Position numbers and translations under genes: made by a program. A model generated the notes under the pieces. The model saw only the letters and a list, made by a program, of their open reading frames with translations. It searched no databases and was not told the DNA's origin. Positions 4,464-22,532 of a stretch of DNA of 22,980 nt are shown here, piece after piece; position 1 is the first letter of the stretch, and each line of letters begins with the position of its first letter. The stretch comes from a bacterium (GTDB lineage Bacteria; JAHJDO01): positions 1-22,980 of the forward strand of contig JAUWOV010000021.1 of NCBI GenBank assembly GCA_030611945.1, written 5' to 3'.

Positions 4464-4954
4464 TGATAATCTTCTTTTCTGCTTTATCTATATTCTTTAT
4501 AGATCAGATTATAAAGTTCTATATACTAAAAAATCTTTGCTTAGGGCAAGAAATAACTATTATTAAAAATATATTCAGTATTTCCTTTGTTACAAATAAA
4601 GGAATTGCGTTTGGCTTACTTTCAAATTCCAACTTTCCTTTTATCTTAATATCCATAGCAGTGCTTGCATGTATGACATTAGTGTTTATTTCATTCAATA
4701 AAGACGCTGTATCAAAAAAGGCGAGAGGCTGGATAAAAATTGCGTATGGATTAATTCTTGGCGGCGCGCTTAGTAATATGCTGGATAGAATAAGAATAGG
4801 GGAGGTTATTGATTTTTTGGACTTTCATATTTGGCCTGTATTTAATATTGGAGATTCTGCAATATGTATAGGGGCTGGGATATTTGTGTTGAATATATTA
4901 AAAAACAAGGCACAAAGTGACAAAGGCACACAGGCACAAAGAAAAAACAACTAG
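4463..4954 (+). CDS. lspA: Lipoprotein signal peptidase (signal peptidase II)
   Basis: This inner-membrane aspartyl protease removes the signal peptide from diacylated prolipoproteins. The 163-residue product has four hydrophobic segments, the DQIIK motif near residue 14, NKGIAFG, GGALSNMLDRIRIGEVIDFLDF and WPVFNIGDSAI. The likely catalytic aspartates are D117 and D131. Where most homologues have FNxAD, this protein has FNIGD. The start overlaps the previous stop as TAATG. The last 17 or so residues (KNKAQSDKGTQAQRKNN) are polar and are encoded by a repeat also found at 19831-19865, so the tail looks like a recent addition. lgt follows after 5 bp, giving a lipoprotein-maturation pair. Confidence 0.95.
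   Translation: MIIFFSALSIFFIDQIIKFYILKNLCLGQEITIIKNIFSISFVTNKGIAFGLLSNSNFPFILISIAVLACMTLVFISFNKDAVSKKARGWIKIAYGLILGGALSNMLDRIRIGEVIDFLDFHIWPVFNIGDSAICIGAGIFVLNILKNKAQSDKGTQAQRKNN
4907..4941 (+). repeat. Octamer-type dispersed repeat at the 3' end of lspA
   Basis: The 35-bp stretch consists of degenerate 8-bp units (GGCACAAA, GTGACAAA, GGCACACA, GGCACAAA). It matches 19831-19865 at 33 of 35 positions. In this copy it is translated as the LspA C-terminal tail, and lspA stops 11 bp after it. The units differ from the surrounding lspA codons and do not encode conserved LspA residues. Confidence 0.8.
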
Positions 4955-16088: not shown

Positions 16089-17354
16089 ATGGCTATTTAT
16101 GCTTATGTTGCGATGAATAATAGCGGTAAAGAGATAAGTGGAAGTGTTGAGGCGGAAACTTCTACTTTGGCGATATCCCAGATAAGGGATATGGGTTATT
16201 TTCCTACGAAGGTTTATGAAAAGTCTTCTGCTTCAGGGACTTCAACATCCGCTAAACCTGCAAAGGCTGGCGGAAGTATGAATATTGCGATTAAACTGCC
16301 GGGAATTGGTGATAGAATAAAGCCTAAACACTTATCCGTTTTTGTCAGACAATTGGCAACATTGCTTGGCGCGGGACTTCCTTTATTGAGGAGCATTAAT
16401 GTTCTGAGCGATCAGGCCAAGCCTGGTATCATAAAAGAAACGCTCTCAGAGGTAGCTGTAGATATTGAGGGAGGCGCTACATTTTCAGACGCAGTTGCCA
16501 AACACCCAAAAAGCTTTTCAAAGCTTTTTGTTAATATGATAAAAGCCGGTGAAGTCGGTGGAATTTTAGAGGCGGTTTTGGAAAGATTGGCTGAATTTTC
16601 AGAGAAGGAAGAGGCGTTAAAGAGAAAAATTAAAGCTGCTATGGTTTATCCTATACTTGTTACTGTTGCGGCTGTAGGAATACTTACTTTTTTAATCATA
16701 GTGGTTATACCGACCTTTAAAAAGATGTTTGAGGATTTTAATACGGAATTGCCGGGTGCTACTGTAATGCTGCTAAAAATATCAGATCTTTTCAAGGACT
16801 GGAAGAGTATTCTTGTTATTCTTGGATCATTAGTCGGACTATTTATAATATATAAGCTTATTAGGAAAACACAAAAAGGGGAGTATTATTCGGATAAGCT
16901 CAAGTTGTATATCCCTGTTGTCGGTCCCTTGGCAAAAAAAACAGCTGTCGGAAGGTTTGCAAGAACATTTGCAACCCTGATCGGAAGCGGAGTCCCAATA
17001 CTTCAGGCGCTTACAATTGTAAAGGATACATCAGGCAATGAAGTAATAGCTCAGGCAATGGTATCTGTTCGTGATAGTATCAGAGAGGGAGAATCAATAG
17101 CAGGTCCTCTAAAAGCAAGCGGAATATTTCCTCCGCTGGTCATTAATATGGTGGATGTCGGCGAGGAAACAGGAGCGCTGGATAAGATGCTGCTTAAAGT
17201 AGCAGATACGTATGATCAGGAAATAGATGCCGCAGTGGAAGCTTTAACAAGCGTAATGGAGCCAATTATGATTGTAGGTATGGGGATTGTTGTAGGTTTC
17301 ATAGTTATTGCGTTATTCTTACCGTTGATTAAGCTGGCTACAGCGATTGTATGA
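16089..17354 (+). CDS. pilC: Inner-membrane platform protein (PilC/GspF family)
   Basis: The product is the polytopic platform that couples the ATPases to pilin insertion. The 421 residues begin [24 protein letters not shown], the typical PilC/GspF opening. They contain two GspF repeats, each with a cytoplasmic helical domain and transmembrane helices (first near [19 protein letters not shown], second near [19 protein letters not shown]), the [20 protein letters not shown] pair, and a final membrane helix ([21 protein letters not shown]). A low-complexity Ser/Ala/Lys linker spans about residues 45-65. GGAGG (16077-16081) lies 7 nt before the ATG and sits in the loop of a weak AAAAAC/GTTTTT stem. 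The stop overlaps the next start as ATGA. Confidence 0.95.
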
Positions 17355-18682
17355 AGCCAAGAATCCTAGTTGTAGACGATGAGTTAAATATGCAGAAAAC
17401 CCTTTCCGGCATTCTCCGTCAGCAAGGCTATGATATCAAGGTATGCGGTGACGGAAAAGAAGCCGTAGAAGTTTTAGACACCGAGCAATTCAATTTAATA
17501 ATCACTGACATAAAGATGCCTCGTATGGATGGGATGACTATGTTATCTGCTGTGAGAAAGAATAACAATGAAATACCTGTTATAATTATTACAGGGCACG
17601 CTACTGTGGATACGGCAATTGATGCGGTAAAGCTTGGAGCGTACGATTATATCAGGAAACCATACACTCCTGACGAGATTCTTTTCTCTGCGCGCAGGGC
17701 GCTGGAACATGAAAAGCTAATAAGCGAAAATTTATATCTACATGACCAGCTGAAAGAAAAATTTCGCCTTAAAGGTCTAATCGGAAATAATAAAAAAATG
17801 CAGAAAGTATATCAATTCGTACAAAAGGTTTCTAAAGCCAATGCCGCTATACTAATAAGAGGAGAGAGTGGAACAGGTAAGGAACTGATAGCTAATGCGA
17901 TTCACTATAATAGTCCGCGTAAGAAAAACAAGTTTCTAGCTATAAATTGCGGAGCTTTGCCGGAGAATCTGTTGGAAAGCGAATTGTTTGGACATGAGAA
18001 AGGCGCATTTACAGGCGCTATAAGCAGTAGGAAAGGAATATTTGAGACAGCTGATAAAGGGACTGTTTTTCTTGATGAAATAGGAGATCTTTCTTTGACT
18101 ACGCAGATGAAATTATTGCGCGTTCTTCAAGACGGAGAATTTAGAGGAGTTGGAGGAACTCGGGAAATTAAAGTTGATGTGAGAATTATAAGCGCAACTA
18201 ATAAGAATTTGGAAGATCTGATAAAAGAGGGACTGTTTAGAGAAGATTTATATTATCGAATAAATGTAATTGCTATTGATCTGCCTCCCCTCAGAGAAAG
18301 GAAAGACGATATAACTCTTTTGGTAAAGCACTTTTTAGCGCCTAAACGGATTTCCTCTGAAGCAATGAATTTACTCATAAATTTTGACTGGCCTGGTAAT
18401 GTTAGAGAGCTGGAAAACGTAATTGAACGCGCGGTAGCATTGCAGGAAGGACCATGTATTCTTCCTGAGGATTTACCGGAATATATTTCCATAGGGGCAC
18501 GGCGCGCCGTGCCCCTACAATTGGAAAATTTTCGCGAGGCGCGAACCGCTTTTGAAGAGAGCTTTTTAATCAATATACTAAAAAAGACAAATAGAAATAT
18601 ATCGCTTGCTTCAAAGAAAGCAGGTCTAAGCAGACGCCATTTCTACGAAAAGATGAGATTACATGGAATAAAGAAGGATTAA
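17351..18682 (+). CDS. NtrC/PilR-type sigma54-dependent response regulator
   Basis: The 443-residue product has three domains. The receiver domain (1-120) has the phosphoacceptor D53 in IITDIKMP, the DDE cluster near residues 8-10 and K-P at the end. The AAA+ sigma54 activator domain (about 145-370) has Walker A GESGTGKE from residue 171, the sigma54-contacting GAFTGA at 218-223, Walker B VFLDEIGD and the R-finger FREDLYYR. The C-terminal Fis-type helix-turn-helix reads [20 protein letters not shown]. Between AAA+ and Fis, residues 382-389 (GARRAVPL) are encoded by a perfect 26-bp palindrome and look inserted. A sigma54 promoter lies at 19914-19930, downstream of the partner kinase, so the likely target is the pseudopilin operon. 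It starts in the stop of pilC (ATGA). Confidence 0.93.
18492..18517. repeat. 26-bp perfect palindrome embedded in the response regulator gene
   Basis: The 13-bp arm TAGGGGCACGGCG is followed by its exact reverse complement CGCCGTGCCCCTA. It is far more GC-rich than the surrounding gene. It is read in frame as GARRAVPL (codons 382-389) between the AAA+ and Fis domains. The 25-bp core-plus-flank from GGGGCAC to CCCCTAC matches the element at 19366-19395 at 23 of 25 positions and is translated in the same frame in both genes. Confidence 0.85.
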
Positions 18683-19828
18683 GTGATAAGGATTAAGGAT
18701 TTATTTTCGCAGCTTGCGTATCTGTTTATATTAACAATTTTAGCCATTTTTCTTGTGTATGTTGCCATCAATGTGTGGAAGTCTCCTCTTCTTCAGCACA
18801 GGGATTTTTTTATTGCGGTTATCTTTTTTTCTCTGGGGGTTGTTGCCTCTATCTTTATATGGAAAATTATCATTCAGCCGATATTTTCGTCTTTTCAACA
18901 AGGGGCTTCAGTCCCTTGTCAGCCCGCAGCCTCCAGCAACGGTCTTCAACCTCTTGTTAACTCAAGAGAACAACTCAAAAAATGGAGTCAGGAATTAGAA
19001 AAAAAGGTAGAGGAAAGAACAGCAGAGCTAAAAAAAACCAATATAGAATTACTTGATACAGAGTTTGAACTTATGGAGAGAGACAAGCTCTCCTCTATGG
19101 GAGAGATATCTGCAAAACTGGCGCATGAAATAAAGAATCCTCTAGCGATTATTAATAATGTGGCGTTTTTTCTCAAGAACGCTTTTAAGAAGCCGGGACA
19201 TGAAGTATCAGAACAAGTTGAAATCCTTTTTCAGGAAACAGACCGCATTAATAAACTTGTTACTGATCTACTCCAGTTTTCCAGAATTTCAGCATCTAGG
19301 GATAAGAATGCGGCTATGATTGATATTAATGAGGTTCTTGATGACGCGATTGTCTCTTTTGAATCGGTCGGGGCACGGGGCGCGGTGCCCCTACCAGAGA
19401 AAAAATACGCAATAAGATTACCAAAAATAAAAGCCAATCCGGACCAGTTGAAACAGGTATTTTTGAATATAATTACCAATGCTTATCAATCTATGGGAAA
19501 CAGCGGGCTTCTTACAATAACCACAGATGTGAAAGAAAATGTAGGGACAGGGCTTGCCCCTGTCCGAGAAGAGGATATTATAGAAATTGTTTTCACTGAT
19601 ACAGGCTGCGGGATCGCGCCTGAAAATTTAAAGAAAATATTCACTCCGTTTTTTTCCACAAAAGAGCCGGGAAAGGGAACAGGACTTGGGCTTTATATCT
19701 GTAAGTCATTAATAAAAACTCTTAATGGAGATATCTCGGTTCAATCCGAAGAGGGAAAGGGAACAAGTTTTACCATTAGTTTGCCAGTGAGGGAAAGCGC
19801 ACACACTGAGATGAAAGAAACACTATGA
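18683..19828 (+). CDS. Membrane-bound sensor histidine kinase (PilS/NtrB-like)
   Basis: The 381-residue kinase is the probable partner of the regulator just upstream. It has two N-terminal transmembrane helices (about 9-30 and 41-65) with only a short extracytoplasmic loop, so it is not an obvious ligand-binding sensor. A coiled coil (about 95-135) leads to the H-box AKLAHEIKNPL with H148. The N-box is FLNIITNAYQSM, G1 is DTGCGIAP and G2 is GKGTGLGLYI. Three GC-rich palindromes are translated within it (QGASVPC, VGARGAVPLP and VGTGLAPV). They fall just after TM2, near residue 230 and near residue 290, in places where homologues usually have loops. The GTG start directly follows the regulator stop. 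No PAS domain is seen. Confidence 0.9.
   Translation: MIRIKDLFSQLAYLFILTILAIFLVYVAINVWKSPLLQHRDFFIAVIFFSLGVVASIFIWKIIIQPIFSSFQQGASVPCQPAASSNGLQPLVNSREQLKKWSQELEKKVEERTAELKKTNIELLDTEFELMERDKLSSMGEISAKLAHEIKNPLAIINNVAFFLKNAFKKPGHEVSEQVEILFQETDRINKLVTDLLQFSRISASRDKNAAMIDINEVLDDAIVSFESVGARGAVPLPEKKYAIRLPKIKANPDQLKQVFLNIITNAYQSMGNSGLLTITTDVKENVGTGLAPVREEDIIEIVFTDTGCGIAPENLKKIFTPFFSTKEPGKGTGLGLYICKSLIKTLNGDISVQSEEGKGTSFTISLPVRESAHTEMKETL
18898..18919. repeat. Small palindrome in the kinase gene (after TM2)
   Basis: ACAAGGG (18898-18904) and CCCTTGT (18913-18919) form 7-bp arms around an 8-nt loop. It is translated as part of QQGASVPCQ just after the second transmembrane helix. Weaker than the other elements; it may be chance or a relative of the same repeat class. 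Confidence 0.45.
19366..19395. repeat. GC-rich palindrome in the kinase gene, second copy of the regulator element
   Basis: Arms GGTCGGGGCAC (19366-19376) and GTGCCCCTACC (19385-19395) pair at 10 of 11 positions around an 8-nt centre. It is read in frame as VGARGAVPLP near residue 230. It matches the palindrome in the preceding gene at 23 of 25 core positions. Confidence 0.8.
19545..19565. repeat. Third GC-rich palindrome in the kinase gene
   Basis: GGACAGGG (19545-19552) and CCCTGTCC (19558-19565) are exact 8-bp arms around a 5-nt loop. It is translated within VGTGLAPVREED near residue 290, between two strands of the ATP-binding domain. Its sequence differs from the element at 19366, so it is probably another family of the same general kind. 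Confidence 0.65.
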
Positions 19829-19830
19829 AG

Positions 19831-19906
19831 AAGGCACAAAGTGGCAAAGGCACATAGGCACAAAGGATAAAAAGTCCCCCTTTGAAGGGGGATTAAGGGG
19901 GATGTT
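19831..19906. repeat. Composite repeat between the kinase and the pseudopilin operon
   Basis: Two repeat types are joined. 19831-19865 holds octamer-type units (GGCACAAA, GTGGCAAA, GGCACATA, GGCACAAA) and matches the lspA tail at 33 of 35 positions. 19856-19906 matches 21845-21895 at 48 of 51 positions and contains the inverted repeat TCCCCCTT-TG-AAGGGGGA (19875-19892). The copy here is non-coding and ends 7 bp before the sigma54 promoter. No T-run follows the hairpin, so a terminator role is unlikely. Confidence 0.85.
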
Positions 19907-20318: not shown

Positions 20319-20897
20319 ATGAGAACAGACGACAGACGACAGACGACAGACGACAGAAAAAAACCATGGTCTATGGTCTATGGTCTATGGTCTAAAAGGG
20401 CAGGATTTACGTTAATCGAGCTTCTGGTCGTAATTGGTATCATTGTGCTTCTTGCGGGTATTGTAATGCCGAACTTTATGAAGTATATAGACAAAGCAAA
20501 AAAAGTACGCACAAGAGCGGATATTCACAGTATTGAGAATGCGTTGGCAATGTATCAGACGGATTGGGGAACATATCCAGGCGATGGCAATGTAAATACT
20601 GGAAATGCAGATTTATCAGATGATGATCCAACTAGTCCCAATATTAGGGGAACTGGAGAGTTAGAGGATATGCTGCAGACTAGCGGGACAAATGCTCGCG
20701 GACCGTATCTTTCAAAGGATATTCCAAATGATCCTTATGGGGAAGAATATAGATACAGAGCTCCTGGAGGAGTTAAGGATAGTTACAACAATCCGCTAGA
20801 TAATCGCGGTTATGATCTCTGGTCCTACGGCAAGGATAAAGAGAATGACAGCGGCGCGGATGATGATATAACCTCATGGGATACTGGGACAGACTAG
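20319..20897 (+). CDS. GspG-like pseudopilin with repeat-encoded leader (second)
   Basis: The 192-residue prepilin matches GspG over its whole mature length: AG then FTLIELLVVIGIIVLLAGIV, ADIHSIENALAMYQTDWGTYP, GPYLSKDIPNDPYGEEYRYR, and NRGYDLWSYGKDKENDSGADDDITSW, the GspG calcium-loop end. An insert of about 25 residues (DGNVNTGNADLSDDDPTSPN) sits in the middle. The leader is unusually long at 29 residues, and nearly all of it is encoded by two heptanucleotide tandem arrays (20325-20357 and 20366-20394). The ATG at 20319 follows AAAGGAGGGG (20306-20315). An in-frame ATG at 20373, within the second array, could give an 11-residue leader. The prepilin peptidase would remove all of this region. 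Confidence 0.88.
   Translation: MRTDDRRQTTDDRKKPWSMVYGLWSKRAGFTLIELLVVIGIIVLLAGIVMPNFMKYIDKAKKVRTRADIHSIENALAMYQTDWGTYPGDGNVNTGNADLSDDDPTSPNIRGTGELEDMLQTSGTNARGPYLSKDIPNDPYGEEYRYRAPGGVKDSYNNPLDNRGYDLWSYGKDKENDSGADDDITSWDTGTD
20325..20357 (+). repeat. Heptanucleotide tandem array ACAGACG x 4.7
   Basis: Unit ACAGACG is repeated four full times plus five bases without mismatch, inside codons 3-13 of the second GspG-like gene. Seven is not a multiple of three, so gain or loss of one unit would shift the reading frame. Confidence 0.9.
20366..20394 (+). repeat. Heptanucleotide tandem array ATGGTCT x 4.1
   Basis: Unit ATGGTCT is repeated four full times plus one base without mismatch, just before the prepilin cleavage region of the same gene. 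Each unit carries an ATG, so start codons occur in all three frames across the array. Confidence 0.9.
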
Positions 20898-21463: not shown

Positions 21464-21841
21464 ATGAAAAATAGAGCTTTCAGCCTTCTTGAACTTGTTA
21501 TTTCAATGGCTATTCTGTCTATTGCGCTTCTCGGGCTTATTCAAATGTTTCCCGTAGGTCTCAGGGCAAGCAAGCATGCGGGAGACCACACAATGATGAC
21601 ATTTCTGGGTCAGCAGAAAATGAGCGATATTGAGCAGAGTAAACCTATAACCAGTGAACCCGTAAACAGTACAGACGGTAACAAGTTTTTCTCTTCCCCG
21701 TATGAGAGCTTTTCGTGGAGACGCGTAGTTTCAGGAAATTACAATAGTATAACTAATTTGTACCATGCTACTTTGGCTATATACTGTAATGATAGAGGCG
21801 ACACCAGAATTGAGGAATTTGTAACGCTTTATGTTAAGTAA
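21464..21841 (+). CDS. GspI/PilV-like minor pseudopilin with Ala at -1
   Basis: The 125-residue product begins MKNRA then FSLLELVISMAILSIALLGLIQMFPVGL, with glutamate at +5 but alanine instead of the usual glycine just before the cleavage site. The mature part has ASKHAGDHTMMTFLGQQKMSDIEQ, similar to GspI/PilV proteins, where AxxLAQxxME follows the first helix. A short beta-rich tail follows (WRRVVSGNY...LYHATLAIYCNDRGDTR). The ATG directly follows the previous stop, and the end overlaps the next gene by 11 bp. The position between GspH-like and GspJ-like genes matches the usual H-I-J-K order. Confidence 0.78.
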   Translation: MKNRAFSLLELVISMAILSIALLGLIQMFPVGLRASKHAGDHTMMTFLGQQKMSDIEQSKPITSEPVNSTDGNKFFSSPYESFSWRRVVSGNYNSITNLYHATLAIYCNDRGDTRIEEFVTLYVK

Positions 21842-22532
21842 AAAAGGCACAAAGGACAAAAATTCCCCCTTTGAAGGGGGATTCAGGGGGATGTTGGGCT
21901 TTACCTTGATCGAAGTCATGATCACAACAGCAGTCCTCGCTTTATTGATAACAGGCATTTACTCCATTTTTAAAGGCGGTACTGATGCAGGGACAAAGGG
22001 AAATGTGAGAATGGAGCGGTATCAGAACGCAAGAGCGGTTCTGGAAATGATGTCAAGAGAGATCTCATGCGCAATGGTCAATGAGGCGAGAAAGATATAT
22101 ATGCTTGGAATAAACGATGCTGGGTTTAAGGAAGACAGCAGCGGAGATGAGCTGTATTTTGTAGCTCCTACACATTCAACATCCAGTTTAGGAGCAGGCG
22201 AGTCGGATATGTGTGAATTAGGATACTGGGTAAGATTGGATACAGAGATTATGCGTCATTACATCGCAAAATCCATTGATTTTGTCTATGAATATGATGC
22301 TGCTGATAGTCCGCTTGGCATAGCGGCAAGAGATCTTCAGTTTTATTATTACTATGGCAATGGTGATGCAGATTTTTATTCAGGAACGTGGGATTCTACA
22401 GATGAAACCAATGATACTACTTATTATAAATTGCCAAAAAAAATAAAGATAATTCTCAAAACGCAGGATGAGGAAGAACGAGAGGCTATTCAGACATTTG
22501 AGACCACTGTGTTTATGCCTGGAGCGGAATGA
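21831..22532 (+). CDS. GspJ/PilW-like minor pseudopilin with repeat-encoded leader
   Basis: The 233-residue product has GFTLIEVMITTAVLALLITGIYSIFKGG, with cleavage after G23, then RNVRMERYQNARAVLEMMSREISCAM-type sequence (YQNARAVLEMMSREISCAM), the GspJ/PilW signature. Next come DELYFVAPTHS, LGYWVRLD and a C-terminal IKIILKTQDEEEREAIQTFETTVFMPGAE typical of the family. From the ATG at 21831 the leader is 23 residues, of which most (KGTKDKNSPFEGGFRGM) are encoded by the repeat at 21845-21895. The ATG at 21891 would give a 3-residue leader and sits after AGGGGG within the repeat. I keep 21831 because the overlap with the previous gene suggests coupling. The GspK-like start overlaps its stop. Confidence 0.82.
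   Translation: MLSKKGTKDKNSPFEGGFRGMLGFTLIEVMITTAVLALLITGIYSIFKGGTDAGTKGNVRMERYQNARAVLEMMSREISCAMVNEARKIYMLGINDAGFKEDSSGDELYFVAPTHSTSSLGAGESDMCELGYWVRLDTEIMRHYIAKSIDFVYEYDAADSPLGIAARDLQFYYYYGNGDADFYSGTWDSTDETNDTTYYKLPKKIKIILKTQDEEEREAIQTFETTVFMPGAE
21845..21895. repeat. Coding copy of the 51-bp composite repeat, in a prepilin leader
   Basis: It matches 19856-19906 at 48 of 51 positions and includes the inverted repeat TCCCCCTT-TG-AAGGGGGA (21864-21881). It is translated in frame, ends at the second possible start codon of the GspJ-like gene and stops 1-2 codons before the prepilin peptidase site. Confidence 0.88.

Follow-up and report, generated by a model that had tools for sequence, protein, structure and literature searches.

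GTAG-type repetitive extragenic palindromic (REP) elements form a superfamily in which a GTAG foot is followed by a 6-13-bp stem, commonly with a 2-3-nt loop, and in which many families occur per genome (Di Nocera et al. 2013, PMC3733652). These elements are mostly intergenic, some lie in frame in genes of known function, and a gene for a REP-associated tyrosine transposase (RAYT) is found nearby (PMC3733652). The transposase, TnpA-REP, binds REPs in single-stranded form and, guided by GTAG, cleaves them at CT (PMC8266576). Here, we describe a stretch of 22,980 nucleotides (contig JAUWOV010000021.1 of assembly GCA_030611945.1, from a bacterium of GTDB lineage JAHJDO01; referred to as the window), in which palindromes are translated in frame within the adjacent genes of a response regulator and a histidine kinase. 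We consider it very likely, at a probability of roughly 0.9, that these palindromes are GTAG-type REPs, made up of a GTAG foot and a DNA hairpin of 8-9 bp that closes on a loop of 2-5 nt, most likely spread as single-stranded hairpins by RAYTs of the same genome.

In-frame REPs within tnpA-REP genes, as well as "double foot" REPs, have been described for subclass 2.4 (Quentin et al. 2018, PMC6006769). In Pseudomonas and Stenotrophomonas, different REP classes flank orthologous RAYT genes, a pattern referred to as REP orthoswitch, and old dispersed copies have been proposed to decay in place (Nunvar et al. 2013, PMC3686654). Among the Rickettsia palindromic elements (RPEs), RPE-4 and RPE-6 are CGTC elements and RPE-1 is longer; these elements lack a dedicated transposase (PMC3733652).

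Palindromes in the regulator and kinase genes

The first gene (17351-18682, plus strand) is an open reading frame (ORF) for an NtrC-family response regulator of 443 residues, with a receiver domain, a sigma-54 AAA+ domain, and a C-terminal DNA-binding part (Pfam PF00072, PF00158, and PF25601). It is followed on the same strand by an ORF (18683-19828) for a histidine kinase of the ZraS/NtrB type, which has 381 residues and a GTG start in the reading used, with HisKA at residues 139-204 and HATPase_c at residues 252-370. A perfect 26-bp palindrome, TAGGGGCACGGCGCGCCGTGCCCCTA, occupies positions 18492-18517 of the regulator gene, and the kinase gene holds a near-copy, TCGGGGCACGGGGCGCGGTGCCCCTA, at 19368-19393, with 3 mismatches in 26 bases (23/26 match); the cores (GGGGCAC...CCCCTAC) match at 23 of 25 bases. 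Dinucleotide-preserving shuffles of the window gave 0.00 expected matches to the palindrome at three or fewer mismatches. Both palindromes are translated as GAR-x-AVPL (GARRAVPL and GARGAVPL, respectively). The regulator element follows the AAA+ lid, which Pfam ends at residue 383, and precedes the C-terminal DNA-binding part; the kinase element lies between HisKA and HATPase_c. A first-pass annotation, made by a model from the letters and translated ORFs of the window, had reported the palindrome pair, its common reading phase, and its location at domain borders or loops, and all three descriptions were borne out by the shuffles, the ORF translations, and the Pfam assignments.

Read on the minus strand, both elements show the anatomy of a GTAG REP. 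The regulator element GTAGGGGCACGGCGCGCCGTGCCC (18495-18518, minus strand; covariance-model match, E = 4.6e-14) reads GTAG-GGGCACGGCGCGCCGTGCCC from 18518 to 18495, a GTAG foot and a 20-nt hairpin. A second foot at 18491-18494 is imperfect (ATAG), and the RNA fold of the element has a predicted energy of -25.1 kcal/mol (z = -5.1). The kinase element GTAGGGGCACCGCGCCCCGTGCCC (19371-19394, minus strand; E = 5.3e-9) has two stem mismatches and reads GTAG-GGGCACCGCGCCCCGTGCCC from 19394 to 19371, again GTAG and a 20-nt hairpin, its plus strand being translated as VGARGAVPLP. A third copy, GTAGGGACAGGGCTTGCCCCTGTCC (19541-19565, plus strand; E = 1.5e-7), lies further downstream in the kinase gene and is translated as VGTGLAPVR. 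Stems of 8-9 bp and loops of 2-5 nt in the regulator copy and the copy at 19541 fall within the range of GTAG REPs, with their 6-13-bp stems and short loops. In a structure model of the kinase (mean predicted local distance difference test score, pLDDT, of 82), the element at 19371-19394 is placed in a helix-strand loop (residues 231-238; the helix ends at 230 and the strand starts at 239), and the element at 19541-19565 in a strand-strand loop (residues 285-298, between strands 277-284 and 299-306).

The copy at 19541-19565, of the same superfamily, had been overlooked in the first-pass annotation, as had a kinase hairpin of another repeat type at 18898-18919, which is described below.

The element family across the source genome

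The source genome comprises 1.66 Mb in 119 contigs. An element model built from 18 copies gave 86 matches at E ≤ 1 and at least 54 distinct places at E < 0.01 (both-strand matches merged), a lower bound because 150 of the 224 candidates were scored. GTAG stands at the 5' foot of the hairpin in nearly all of the about 60 places listed, including the minus strand of 18495-18518 and 19371-19394 and the plus strand of 19541-19565. The foot is constant and the stem is variable, with coexisting types that include ACGGC, ACAGC, GGGGC-TT-GCCTCC, ACAGGGC-TT-GCCCTGT, CAATATTTTG, and others. Most dispersed copies are intergenic; 14 of the 54 places are in confirmed genes, to which three weaker matches can be added. 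The search for further copies that had been suggested to check for a small mobile palindrome family thus returned a dispersed family with genic and intergenic members; the movement itself we infer.

Reading phases and protein context of the in-gene copies

Seventeen elements are located within genes that Pfam or orthologues in related genomes identify: one in the regulator, two in the kinase, four in two RAYTs, one at the C-terminus of RpoD, four in RHS-repeat proteins, three in a Dpy19-like protein, and one each in CoaX and RibD. The GTAG strand is the coding one for nine of them and the opposite strand for eight. Their phases were V-G (GTA GGG) in seven cases, R-(G/D) (AGG) in two, ...P-T in four, and ...P-L or equivalent in four, so that four of the five stop-free phases are used and the GARxAVPL-type phase accounts for 4/17 elements; the TAG phase, in which TAG would be a stop, is never used. 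Because four phases and both orientations are in use, we rejected a single selected reading frame, and with it the earlier suggestion of selection for one open, loop-compatible frame; the phase shared by the two palindromes of the window is one of four. At the RpoD C-terminus, the REP forms both the last residues and the stop codon (..GFLEVGARRDMPL*; locus L047, C61:19008-19039).

Alignment with homologues, another check that had been suggested, together with the structure model placed the residues encoded by the elements in loops and showed that they are not common to distant homologues. Compared with solved homologues, the residues in CoaX, the regulator linker, and the kinase element at 19541 are alignment gaps.

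RAYT genes

RAYT genes with the PF01797 (Y1_Tnp) domain were found in all five genomes of the genus, i.e. the source genome and four congeners. Two RAYTs of the source genome, on contigs C105 (228 residues) and C56 (231 residues), are open frames with an HUH motif (MPNHIHG) and a WQRNYY motif (WQRNYYEH in C105). Each holds two in-frame REPs in inverted orientation, flanking the HUH codons; in C105 these are of the ACGGC and ACAGC stem types, ACGGC being the stem type of the regulator element, and an additional REP copy lies nearby (C105:13573). Internal REPs were also seen in the RAYT genes of the congeners. At the RAYT loci (L032, L030, and those of the congeners), the inverted in-frame pair that brackets the HUH codons amounts to a REPIN-like arrangement within the transposase gene.

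Among 80 public RAYT relatives, 72 had a readable HUH motif, and a perfect stem of at least 7 bp was present in the 120 nt after HUH in 50 of these 72, compared with 6 for the 120 nt before HUH and 2 for shuffled sequences. We dropped RAYT-internal REPs as a novelty; since PMC6006769 had described them earlier, those found here are a confirmation.

Orthologous sites in four congeners

Both genes are present in all four congeners (G001-G004), with 85-88% identity for the regulator and 77-83% for the kinase. The genus is isolated, the next relatives available sharing only the domain, and the comparison covers five genomes, all of them fragmented assemblies, and few orthologous sites. In the regulator linker, other REPs occupy the same place in G003 (GTAGGAGCAGGCTTTGCGCCTGCCC), G004 (GCAGGGGTAGGTTTTCAACCTGCCC), and G002 (GCGGGGATAGGTTTTCAACCTGCCC). 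At kinase positions 19371-19394, G001 has GTAGGGGCAGGGCTTGCGCCTGCCC, G004 has GTAGGGGCAGATTTGAAACCCGCCC, G003 has a decayed form, and G002 has no REP. At 19541, G001 carries GTAGGGGCAACCCTTGCGGTTGCCC at the identical base, and the site is cleanly empty in G002 and G004. Orthologous REPs begin at the same base of the alignment.

The differences between these REPs are strongly structured. At 19541, eight of the 25 bases are different between the source genome and G001, and together they make up exactly four fully compensated base pairs, an outcome obtained in 0 of 200,000 random placements of eight changes under a null without mutation bias. For the REP in the groEL-groES spacer, the same two genomes differ by three compensated pairs (344 of 200,000 random placements), and G-U intermediates are present; a RAYT-internal orthologous site shows one or three compensated pairs, according to which two sequences are compared. 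Elsewhere, orthologous REPs show no difference over 24-26 bases, with flanks just 71-95% identical. Since stems are either wholly conserved or fully re-paired between congeners, a REP tends to stay whole or to switch whole, and since all eight changes at 19541 are compensated pairs, it is possible for a REP inside a host gene to be replaced, or to co-evolve, as a unit.

A tentative interpretation is that REPs within host genes have repeatedly exchanged one stem type for another without changing position, the two arms changing together and the boundaries being exact to the base. A protein loop would then act as a permanent docking site, and its peptide would be rewritten through exchange between REPs of the genome rather than through point mutations. 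No description of in-place REP switching within host genes was found in the literature searched, the coverage of which was incomplete. We regard the in-place change as a modest new evolutionary observation on an otherwise known kind of element.

The REP between groEL and groES (L045, C74:2153-2184) is a double-foot element that three congeners retain, with changes that are compensatory or give G-U pairs, and for that reason it may have a role in the mRNA.

Proposed mechanism and alternative explanations

Based on the cleavage of single-stranded REPs by TnpA-REP (PMC8266576), the genome's own RAYTs, HUH/tyrosine enzymes of the TnpA-REP kind that resemble subclass 2.4 by described features, most likely spread the REPs as single-stranded hairpins. 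Insertions that break a frame or a fold would be removed, and those in loops would stay. Once resident, a REP evolves as a unit and between congeners either remains nearly unchanged or gives way entirely to a different paired stem. Such switches probably result either from another REP, through conversion or strand exchange, a possibility raised by several new stems that coincide with types occurring elsewhere in the genus, or from a hairpin-templated correction from arm to arm, as suggested by the G-U intermediates in the groEL-groES spacer.

Several observations weigh against such spreading by insertion. Neither transposition nor a target-site signature was observed in the genome comparisons made, the assembly is fragmented, and the copy number is a minimum estimate. 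Moreover, the kinase site at 19371-19394 is not a clean insertion, as the REP-less G002 is two residues longer there, and the REP in RibD adds only about one residue compared with solved homologues, from which we conclude that existing sequence can be replaced as well as interrupted. Clean insertion as a description of all in-gene copies was therefore dropped, these two sites resembling replacements.

We find it rather improbable that a role in the mRNA or DNA of the operon, such as translation pausing or mRNA stability, has preserved the hairpins, with the paired changes reflecting ordinary structure-preserving selection. The strong folds, the paired changes with G-U intermediates at the intergenic groEL-groES copy, and the hairpins that most congeners have at several sites of the kinase gene are consistent with such a role; the occurrence of the same elements in unrelated genes and intergenic sites, the two congeners in which the 19541 site is cleanly empty, the lack of a REP at 19366 in G002, and wholesale stem switches that match types elsewhere in the genus argue against it. 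That the elements are RPEs, a separate family selected for one open, loop-compatible frame, is very improbable. They share with RPEs the in-frame residence in protein loops, and the likeness to RPEs drawn in the first-pass annotation holds as an analogy of behaviour. Membership is ruled out by the foot, which is GTAG and not CGTC, and by the association with a RAYT, the intragenic CGTC elements of R. conorii having no dedicated transposase (PMC3733652); in addition, their unit measures 24-25 nt, they occur in four phases and both orientations, and their sequences do not correspond to CGTC-1/CGTC-4 or RPE-1. Nothing was found in favour of the idea that GAR-x-AVPL is a conserved peptide whose codons are palindromic by accident. 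It is refuted by the absence of these residues from distant homologues, by the different residues in congeners, by the expected 0.00 chance matches, and by the intergenic copies, and we assign it a negligible probability.

Other repeats in the window

The kinase hairpin at 18898-18919, ACAAGGGGC-TTCA-GTCCCTTGT, is in frame (residues about 72-79) and, according to the structure model, lies in a disordered linker (pLDDT below 50 for residues 75-88). Congeners carry GAACAGTGGGTTTAAACCCACTGTTC or ...AGGGGGTTTAAACCCCCT... at this site; the change is paired, and the congener hairpins are perfect 26-bp palindromes (GAACAGTGGGTTTAAACCCACTGTTC or GAACAGGGGGTTTAAACCCCCTGTTC) within the disordered linker. 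Positions 61-92 form a perfect 32-bp palindrome, GACCCCATCCCGAAAGCTTTCGGGATGGGGTC, the core of which, CCCGAAAGCTTTCGGG, recurs near REPs on other contigs (L033 and L042). Dispersed repeats GGCACAAAGTGRCAAAGGCACA and CCCCCTTTGAAGGGGGATTMAGGGGGATG occur at 19828-19906, 21836-21895, and 4904-4947, and in the Dpy19-like ORF of G001 a relative of the GGCACAAAGTGRCAAAGGCACA repeat stands in for two REPs. The predicted start of a prepilin ORF (20319-20400) consists of short tandem repeats (GACAGACGACAGACG and ATGGTCTATGGTC) ahead of a KRAGFTLIEL signal, and its true start may lie downstream of these repeats.

Comparison with known systems

These results extend the GTAG REP/RAYT system to an isolated and little-known bacterial lineage and place REPs inside core genes, namely rpoD, coaX, ribD, and the genes of the sensor kinase and the response regulator. 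Change of in-gene REPs can be compared cleanly at the orthologous sites, where stems are either unchanged despite drift of the flanks or fully re-paired, and conversion or hairpin-templated correction becomes directly testable with more genomes of the genus.

Anatomy, dispersal, in-frame genic copies, and RAYT association are all as described for the GTAG REPs of PMC3733652. The present lineage is not among the species listed there, and here the stem types of orthologous in-gene copies were compared across congeners. The double-foot GTAG...CTAC REPs are shared with the subclass 2.4 REPtrons of PMC6006769, whereas in the RAYTs of this genus a pair of internal REPs, inverted relative to each other, brackets the HUH codons. 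In-frame palindromes in protein genes are likewise common to the present elements and RPEs, which differ in foot, length, and transposase. As in the orthoswitch of PMC3686654, different REPs occupy orthologous positions; in contrast to that model, of which this is not a part, the copies switched in place here are dispersed among host genes, and their pairing is kept.
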